From an uncultured Saprospiraceae bacterium (GTDB lineage Bacteria > Bacteroidota > Bacteroidia > Chitinophagales > Saprospiraceae), in assembly GCA_937967615.1 (NCBI GenBank), contig CALCMJ010000038.1:1-64000 (forward strand): DNA of 64,000 bases. Direction: 5' to 3'. Positions 3,624 through 7,641 of the stretch are shown here, in pieces (within the stretch, counting starts at the first letter, position 1; each line of letters starts with the position of its first letter). Position numbers and translations under genes: made by a program. The notes beneath the pieces were generated by a model. That model saw nothing but the letters and a program-made list of their open reading frames with translations. It was not told the DNA's origin and ran no database searches.

Positions 3624-5030
3624 CTATGGATTATTGCTTATAATATTGTCCATCACACTTGGCAACTGCTCCACACCTAATCCCTTAATCAAAATTTCTC
3701 TTTCTTTATTTATAACAAATACAGTAGGCGTAGTTTTAATATTGTATTTCAGTTTAAACCTTGACTTATGATTTTCATCTGTAACATTGATAAATCCTAA
3801 CATGCCTTTTTCCTTGACTGAGTCCCAGCACTTTGCTGTCTTATCTCGTAATGCAGTACACACGGCTAAAACCTTTACTCCCTTATCTTTATAATTCTGT
3901 TCAAACTCAATAAGTTTAGGCGTACTCTTCTTGCAATGCCCACAATCTGGATCCCAGAAATAGATAACTAAATAGGTGTAGTCCAACTCTGAAATGGAAA
4001 CATCTGTTCCGTCTTCTTTGTACATTCTAATATCACTCGCAGTCTTTCCTATTAGAATAGGCTCTAGTCGTCTCGCCTCATCCTTCATCTTTTCTAGAGT
4101 TTCTTCTTCCACCCAGGGCGCTTTGCCCTTTGCATAATATTCTTTTACTAGATGCACATAGATAGCATCATGGCCTATGAACTTTGACTTTGCATATTTA
4201 CTTAGATAGTGACTCAAATACGATTTAAACAATTCTGAATCTTCATCCATATTTCCATATAAGAAATCAAGTGCATGAGAAACAGAATCCGGATTTTGCT
4301 GTGTAAGTGTTTCTAGAAAGTATTTGATCTTCGCATGCAAAAATGCAGTCCGCAGTATTGCAGGATTATTCAGGTCAATATTATCAAAATAATGTTTCTT
4401 AAAATAGTGATACCGCTTAAGCCGAATTGAATCTGGATGTCCTTCAAATTCTGGCATTGGCACTGCCATATTTGATTTCAATAAAAGTGATGTGATCGTA
4501 TTCGGATATCTTTGGATTAGATCTTCTAAGTGGGTATTTACTTTATCATCAAGTATATCAAGTGCAGCTTCATGCTCAGCCCGCTTAACAGGATCAGTAC
4601 CATCTATTTCTAACTTAGCATGTATGCTATCTGCTGTGGCCTTACAACTCCCAATGTAGACTAAGTAATCTTGAAACATCTGATTATCAATAGAACCCTC
4701 AACTTCTGCGAAACGCATATTTGCGATATTAAACTCCAATTTAAATTCTTGGTCATCAGCTGGCACCATAAATTGACCTACCTGTCTATCTGGCAATGTC
4801 AAAACTAAATACATACCAGGGAGTAGTGGCTCTTCTCCCTTAATTTTAAACTCACCTATCTTTTCATTATACACTGTATCTAGTACTAGCTGTCTGTCCG
4901 CAAAGTAGTAACCTACTATTAGTGTGTCATTTGTATACCCATTGATTCTTACATCTATGTTATACCCTTCTTGTCCAAAACAAGTAATTACGGCTACGAA
5001 GCTTATAATGATGGCCAACAATGTTTTCAT
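3624..5030 (-). CDS. secreted TlpA/ResA-like thiol-disulfide oxidoreductase with DUF4369-type N-domain
   Basis: The 468-residue product has a signal peptide (about 1-19, ...ITCFGQ) and an N-terminal beta-rich DUF4369-like region (about 23-125). A helical middle segment (about 125-320) resembles the DUF5106 region of such proteins. The C-terminal thioredoxin domain has active site CGHC at residues 363-366 in the stretch FWDPDCGHCKKSTPKL. The cis-proline loop TTPTVFVI follows about 65 residues later. It should act in the periplasm, reducing or rearranging disulfides. Proteins of this layout are abundant in Bacteroidota and often of unassigned substrate. No cytochrome c maturation gene is next to it. 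It is transcribed in the same direction as pyrB-pyrR upstream but separated by 87 bases. Confidence 0.87.
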   Translation of the reverse strand: MKTLLAIIISFVAVITCFGQEGYNIDVRINGYTNDTLIVGYYFADRQLVLDTVYNEKIGEFKIKGEEPLLPGMYLVLTLPDRQVGQFMVPADDQEFKLEFNIANMRFAEVEGSIDNQMFQDYLVYIGSCKATADSIHAKLEIDGTDPVKRAEHEAALDILDDKVNTHLEDLIQRYPNTITSLLLKSNMAVPMPEFEGHPDSIRLKRYHYFKKHYFDNIDLNNPAILRTAFLHAKIKYFLETLTQQNPDSVSHALDFLYGNMDEDSELFKSYLSHYLSKYAKSKFIGHDAIYVHLVKEYYAKGKAPWVEEETLEKMKDEARRLEPILIGKTASDIRMYKEDGTDVSISELDYTYLVIYFWDPDCGHCKKSTPKLIEFEQNYKDKGVKVLAVCTALRDKTAKCWDSVKEKGMLGFINVTDENHKSRFKLKYNIKTTPTVFVINKEREILIKGLGVEQLPSVMDNIISNNP

Positions 5031-6696: not shown

Positions 6697-7641
6697 TTAT
6701 TCCATAAGCCACCACTCTTTCTCAAAGTCCCTTGTATACCTTAGAGGATAATTCTCCTTCTTGCTTGTCTTAATATTTTGAAGCCATTCTAATTGCTTTG
6801 GACTCAGAAAAAGCTCAGGATCTTTATTTGATGCCAGTGCGCTATTCATCTTCGTACGCTGCATAGATGTGAGAGGAAGATGTTTGTAAATTGTACGTTT
6901 AAGATAGTACTGTGGATCCTTATCTTCTCTAAATTTTGAAGACTGCACTGGTGTGCAACTTGCCTCTTTCGCATAACTATCTAATTTCTTTTTACTTAAT
7001 TTCTTCTCATCATAGATTACTTTAACAACCTCATAGCCATTCATAAATCCAGGGCTAGTTTCCAGAACACCTTCTTGTCCACCTAAATGTCCTTCCCCAC
7101 TCCAGAAGCAATACATTTTATAATATTCTTCTGAAAGATTTTTTTGCTTTGCAGTATTTTCTTCATTCAGTATATTTAAATACCCAGGAATCTCTTTTTT
7201 CTGTTTCTTAAGTGCAGTGAGCATCCCATGTGTTACAGCTTGAATAGAATAATCTCCAGAAATTCTATTGATTAAATTATCCCCGTTCTTATTAAGAATG
7301 CGTACGACCGGGTTATTCCAACTTGGCTCATTATATAATTCTAAAACTTCTTTGTCATGGCCTCCTTTATTGTTATAGATAGCGAGCGGAATGAATTCAT
7401 TTTCAATAGCATCTACTAACAAGCCATTGCTTAAAACATTTTGTCCATAATTCCTACATGTAGCACAGCCAGGAACTTCCTGAAATAACAGAAAAATAGC
7501 TTTGTCTTCCTCTTGAGCCTTTTGTATCGCTTCTGAATAATTTCTAAACCATTTTATTTTTCCGAGTTCCACAGGGTTATTATCCTGTCCAGATAAAGAC
7601 ATAGAAATCAAAAGAGATAAAATGAAAATTGTATTTCGCAT
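6697..7641 (-). CDS. secreted thioredoxin-fold protein fused to a divergent MsrA-like domain
   Basis: The 314-residue product has a signal peptide (about 1-19). An N-terminal thioredoxin-like domain (about 25-150) carries the active-site motif CATC at 59-62 (EVPGCATCRNYG), a WNNPVVRIL cis-proline-like strand, and helices typical of the Thioredoxin_7 group. The C-terminal part (about 170-290) reads like methionine sulfoxide reductase A. YCFWSGE (177-183) matches the GCFWGxE catalytic motif with Cys178 and Glu183 in register. EVVKVIYDEKKLS (204-216) matches the EVVxVxYDPxxIS strand, and PQYYLKRTIY (243-252) matches the GTQYRSxIY segment. The usual loop with TGH is absent, and Cys229 could be the resolving cysteine. 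The likely role is reduction of oxidised methionine in the periplasm by an in-cis thioredoxin. The fusion reading is my own pattern match. Confidence 0.7.
   Translation of the reverse strand: MRNTIFILSLLISMSLSGQDNNPVELGKIKWFRNYSEAIQKAQEEDKAIFLLFQEVPGCATCRNYGQNVLSNGLLVDAIENEFIPLAIYNNKGGHDKEVLELYNEPSWNNPVVRILNKNGDNLINRISGDYSIQAVTHGMLTALKKQKKEIPGYLNILNEENTAKQKNLSEEYYKMYCFWSGEGHLGGQEGVLETSPGFMNGYEVVKVIYDEKKLSKKKLDSYAKEASCTPVQSSKFREDKDPQYYLKRTIYKHLPLTSMQRTKMNSALASNKDPELFLSPKQLEWLQNIKTSKKENYPLRYTRDFEKEWWLME

Follow-up and report, generated by a model that had tools for sequence, protein, structure and literature searches.

Among the MsrA proteins described so far, that of Clostridium oremlandii (CoMsrA; PDB 4lwj, 4lwm and 4u66) is a 1-Cys selenoprotein with an added helical domain, whose activity depends on Glu55, the loss of which costs about 1000-fold, and whose pocket is lined by Tyr47, His137 and Tyr140; it is reduced by glutaredoxin (Grx) and not by thioredoxin (Trx) (PMC4479559). 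PilB of Neisseria is an exported protein with a thioredoxin-like domain ahead of a full-length MsrA and an MsrB domain. Fusions of Msr with Trx or Grx domains are also present in archaea and bacteria, and their MsrA or MsrB domains are described as ordinary (PMC6211008). A 2026 review of the selenoproteome listed among the prokaryotic selenoproteins a further family, known earlier as the hypothetical protein OS_HP5 (PMC13188914). The protein presented here belongs to this last family, and its C-terminal half is homologous to the core of MsrA.

The gene lies in a window of 64,000 nucleotides, the whole stretch of DNA that was analysed, which is part of contig 38 in a draft genome of 3.8 Mb. It is an uninterrupted reading frame (Table 1), and the plus strand of the same segment has many stop codons. 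The product is a member of NCBIfam NF041383, “VPGUxxT family thioredoxin-like (seleno)protein, type 2”, with a match from residue 25 to residue 287 that covers positions 1-287 of the model, and it shows the VPG[U/C]xx[T/C] motif in its Cys form (VPGCATC, residues 56-62). The original prediction knew of no described family of this shape, a statement that NF041383 contradicts: it is the same family over the full length, and all of the aligned relatives (76/76) match the model. This family is catalogued by its thioredoxin motif and a possible selenocysteine (Sec), under a name that holds neither a function nor a link with MsrA, and we found no description of its MsrA half in the open-access literature. 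The members examined here have Cys, not Sec. Each TGA considered in the relatives as an in-frame UGA (Sec) falls at the C-terminal end, past the conserved region, and was read as an ordinary stop.

Table 1. Coordinates of the gene and of its features in the window.
Feature	Position	Strand	Evidence
Whole gene, 314 aa, NF041383 family	6697..7641	minus	Uninterrupted ORF; 315.7 bits against a curated cut-off of 275
Signal peptide, about residues 1-19, Sec type, no lipobox	7585..7641	minus	Sequence MRNTIFILSLLISMSLSGQ
Thioredoxin-like domain, residues 25-146	7204..7569	minus	Pfam Thioredoxin_7 and Foldseek
CATC redox motif, residues 59-62 (VPGCxxC; Sec in some relatives)	7456..7467	minus	C59 in 79/79, C62 in 77/79
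MsrA core, residues 167-226, strand-helix-strand-strand-helix	6964..7143	minus	hhalign, AlphaFold (pLDDT 96.1), Foldseek
CFWSGE, residues 178-183, predicted nucleophile Cys178	7093..7110	minus	C178, W180, G182 and E183 in 79/79; F179 in 78/79
Glu204, equivalent to the glutamate of TGHAE; the TGH loop would sit just before	7030..7032	minus	79/79; aligned after a 17-column gap
Family-specific helical tail, residues 231-314, with invariant Q261, N266 and Q283 and an LSP motif	6700..6951	minus	Alignment and AlphaFold

The family is carried by 180 of 398 genomes sampled from the same taxonomic family and is rare in the rest of the phylum, where 3 of 395 genomes have a match above the cut-off and further cases occur in Aquimarina. 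Weak matches to the NF041383 model appear in most genomes of the phylum, and 25 of the 26 best such loci fetched turned out to be MsrAs of the GCFW type; two other loci with weak thioredoxin matches (L025 and L026) are, judged by sequence, other thioredoxin proteins. A single member, 36% identical, was found on a plasmid of Sphingomonas paucimobilis, and no carriage by phages was detected. Between the window gene and that of a sister species every part is under purifying selection, with dN values of 0.17-0.40 in the domains, dN being the informative number because synonymous sites are near saturation.

In the N-terminal half, the hydrophobic N-terminus is shared by 49 of the 54 members examined, and some of the exceptions may reflect the scripted choice of start sites. 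The thioredoxin domain is recognized by Pfam Thioredoxin_7 (residues 31-117, 30.6 bits, cut-off 27), and Foldseek relates it to a Bacteroides thioredoxin-fold protein (3f9u), DsbH and DsbD-gamma. Together with the profile match of the second half, these features bear out the central claim of the original prediction, that of an exported thioredoxin domain joined to a divergent MsrA domain.

The homology of the C-terminal half with MsrA was found both by profile search and by the AlphaFold comparison that had been proposed for checking it. When 70 family C-terminal domains were aligned by hhalign with 21 MsrAs of the same phylum, the probability was 98.7% and the E-value 3.7e-16, a resemblance well above what chance would give; a search of the domain profile against 177,635 PDB sequences ranked MsrA first (best E 2.5e-7), and the Pfam family PMSR was found in 70/70 of the domains (best E 4.6e-9). 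For the window protein, PF01625 scores 22.4 bits with the whole protein, under the gathering cut-off of 23.7, and 25.5 bits with the domain alone. In AlphaFold the whole protein has a pLDDT of 94.9 and the C-terminal domain one of 96.1, and Foldseek with this domain gives MsrAs as the top PDB matches, CoMsrA being the first (E 1.2e-5, probability 1.00). The core superposes over 72-76 columns at 0.9-1.2 Å on 3e0m, on the MsrA of PilB (3bqh, about 0.9 Å) and on that of E. coli (1ff3), with TM-scores on the query of 0.33-0.58, and therefore the match is limited to the MsrA core. Homology of the C-terminal domain with MsrA is restricted to this core. Weak matches to HMA or MerP metal-binding domains were also seen; we read them as the common ferredoxin-like fold and rejected a metal-binding interpretation.

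The sequence blocks first pointed out as MsrA-like, together with the CATC motif at 59-62, are all correctly numbered: YCFWSGE (177-183), EVVKVIYDEKKLS (204-216) and PQYYLKRTIY (243-252). The third one, however, is not confirmed as an MsrA element equivalent to GTQYRSAIY in the NRQGND-QYRS segment: hhalign aligns nothing beyond the second helix and the block is helical in AlphaFold, the Pfam PMSR alignment alone extending across it. At the first block, the G-C-F-W-x-x-E context of MsrA is found around C178, with the preceding Gly replaced by Tyr. The original prediction named the pair Cys178/Glu183, and Glu183 is kept in 79/79 sequences, but the acid that matters is Glu204 and not Glu183 alone; Glu204 aligns with the invariant glutamate of TGHAE, which corresponds to CoMsrA Glu55.

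The conservation was taken from 79 sequences with identities down to 34%, and the Sphingomonas homologue retains C59, C178, W180, G182, E183 and E204. The C-terminal domain could nevertheless be a non-catalytic remnant of MsrA that serves a functional thioredoxin domain in binding or as a structural part, as the missing active-site loop and the whole-protein score under the Pfam cut-off would suggest. This explanation we regard as improbable, because the invariance of C178, W180 and E204, extending to a proteobacterial homologue, argues against a dead domain, which would be expected to drop its cysteine in some members. Thus, of the two options initially offered, a minimal enzyme or a non-catalytic relative, the second is disfavoured. 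A separate observation is a 147-aa ORF in another genome of the phylum (L118, 3998-4441) that corresponds to the C-terminal domain and lacks both a thioredoxin domain and a signal peptide. Its motif reads CIRWTGE in place of CFWSGE, so that the nucleophile is shifted or lost, while the equivalents of E183 and E204 are retained.

The sole other cysteine in the MsrA-like domain of the window protein, C229 at the resolving position, is present in 46 of the 79 sequences and is therefore not a general resolving cysteine, which fits a 1-Cys type in need of an outside thiol. The presence of an invariant cysteine in both domains of a single exported protein would also be compatible with a thiol-disulfide exchange or sensor protein, where a regulatory C178-C59 disulfide would signal oxidation with no repair of a substrate; such a role leaves the kept Phe-Trp pair and Glu204 unexplained, and we consider it very improbable.

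The TGH (L1) loop, which holds a substrate tyrosine in MsrA, is absent from the family, as had been anticipated with an estimate of about 20 residues: around 17 are missing in hhalign and in the alignment, where the family profile and all the members displayed lack 17 columns. The strands on either side of this loop in MsrA meet here in a tight turn, with an L1 of one residue. Also absent is the PAEDYHQ (YHQ) motif of the MsrA C-terminus, with the helical tail in its place, and this tail gave no detectable match to canonical MsrA in the hhalign comparison with the 21 MsrAs. Not one loop but the entire C-terminal half of MsrA is replaced in the family. In several genomes of the same taxonomic family, many members (e.g., L008, L009 and L011) have about 20-30 additional residues inserted behind the position of C229, which the window protein lacks. 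In another genome of the phylum, an MsrA domain close to CoMsrA (L047/L153) has a shortened loop, with GDHIETV replacing TGHAE.

CoMsrA is the closest solved structure by Foldseek, and resembles the domain in its shortened L1 (read from the alignment), in having no conserved resolving Cys, in an extra helical region and in a recycling that depends on a Trx-fold protein, as predicted here. Unlike the window protein, it keeps a 14-residue L1 with Tyr47 as well as the RQY and YHQ motifs, and it is a protein of its own that glutaredoxin reduces, whereas here the reductase domain is fused. The PilB arrangement shares export and the thioredoxin-like domain in front of MsrA, but its MsrA is not trimmed and it has an MsrB domain, for which the window protein gave no Pfam match (SelR). 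With the archaeal and bacterial Msr fusions the principle of a fused thiol relay is the same, and the domain order and family differ.

The family has no counterpart of the L1 tyrosine and the YHQ residues of the CoMsrA pocket, and the replacement of half of the pocket usual in MsrA makes a different substrate a serious competing explanation. The MsrA-like domain may use Cys178 on, for example, a persulfide, a disulfide, a sulfenic acid or a different sulfoxide, bound in a pocket that the helical tail would have come to form; the tail has its own invariant residues and LSP motif where MsrA has its conserved set. That the organism already has ordinary MsrA and MsrB points in the same direction: the genome encodes two canonical MsrAs, on contigs 73 and 149, one of them adjoining an msrB and the other with a lipoprotein-like N-terminus, and two MsrBs. 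On the other hand, C-F-W and E204, the residues of MsrA chemistry and methyl binding, are kept exactly, and the one annotated neighbourhood, that of Sphingomonas, is rich in msr genes. On balance, a different substrate seems rather unlikely to us, though clearly more credible than a dead or a sensing domain.

In that neighbourhood, on plasmid NZ_CP065714.1, the family gene lies 5.6 kb from msrB-msrA, with redoxin-domain and DM13 genes on one side, a sulfite-oxidase-like and ferredoxin-reductase pair on the other, and dipZ farther away; an OsmC fusion and a GST also belong to the stretch, which, as a single case, looks like an oxidative-damage island. No clear signal peptide was found in the Sphingomonas homologue. 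Among the Bacteroidota, 51 loci shared no gene neighbours apart from a genus-level synteny with the pyrR-pyrB side, and no common Pfam pattern was found among 90 ORFs adjoining family genes. In the window, the gene is flanked on one side by what we take from its sequence to be a SusD/RagB-like gene, and on the other by genes that are presumably pyrR and pyrB, a side retained next to the family gene in the sister species. Downstream, past pyrR and pyrB, a second exported thioredoxin-like protein (TlpA-type, CGHC) is encoded at 3624-5030 on the minus strand, with the same gene order in the sister species.

Our preferred reading, to which we give a probability of about 0.55, is that of an exported, self-recharging thiol reductase, in which a 1-Cys domain of the MsrA type, acting most likely on S-methionine sulfoxide (S-MetSO), would be recycled by its own thioredoxin domain. 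Cys178 would attack the sulfur of the oxidised substrate, most likely methionine-S-sulfoxide, either free or in envelope proteins, while Glu204 would donate the proton and Phe179-Trp180 would hold the methyl group. The attack would leave a sulfenic acid on Cys178. Since the MsrA-like domain has no conserved resolving cysteine, Cys59 of the thioredoxin domain fused to it would most likely resolve this acid, and the thioredoxin domain would then be re-reduced by a membrane reductase of the DsbD/CcdA type. The analysis establishes the homology and the fold of the two domains, the invariant C59, C178 and E204, and the presence of a signal sequence; sulfoxide reductase activity, its substrate, the passage of electrons from one domain to the other and their ultimate donor are what we infer. 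A DsbD_TM protein is encoded in the genome, and the msr-rich Sphingomonas context, a single case, is suggestive. Against this reading count the lack of conserved neighbours in Bacteroidota, the new C-terminal half with its missing pocket residues, the reduction of CoMsrA by Grx only, and a Sphingomonas homologue without a clear signal peptide. The need for a third MsrA is also left unexplained by a genome that already has two canonical ones, and the least secure step is the identity of the substrate, given the half-new pocket and the two MsrBs that come on top of these MsrAs. As a whole, the original prediction is confirmed in its observation and partly supported in its interpretation, where the repair of methionine sulfoxide is a predicted role.

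More tentatively, and with the odds somewhat against it, the members could form a widespread exported fusion family in which MsrA has been cut to its nucleophile core, with a new helical pocket in place of the substrate loop and the C-terminal half and with a built-in reductant, as a self-recharging sulfoxide or sulfur-oxide reductase with a new substrate range. With its invariant nucleophile and acid, the trimmed MsrA makes the function of the family directly testable, and offers a functional hypothesis for NF041383, so far named without one, with members in Bacteroidota and on a proteobacterial plasmid. If true, it would show how little of MsrA suffices for its chemistry, and would provide a natural one-chain system for the recycling of 1-Cys MsrAs, a process described as poorly understood (PMC4479559). 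It could also explain the use of selenium where relatives have Sec in the thioredoxin motif.
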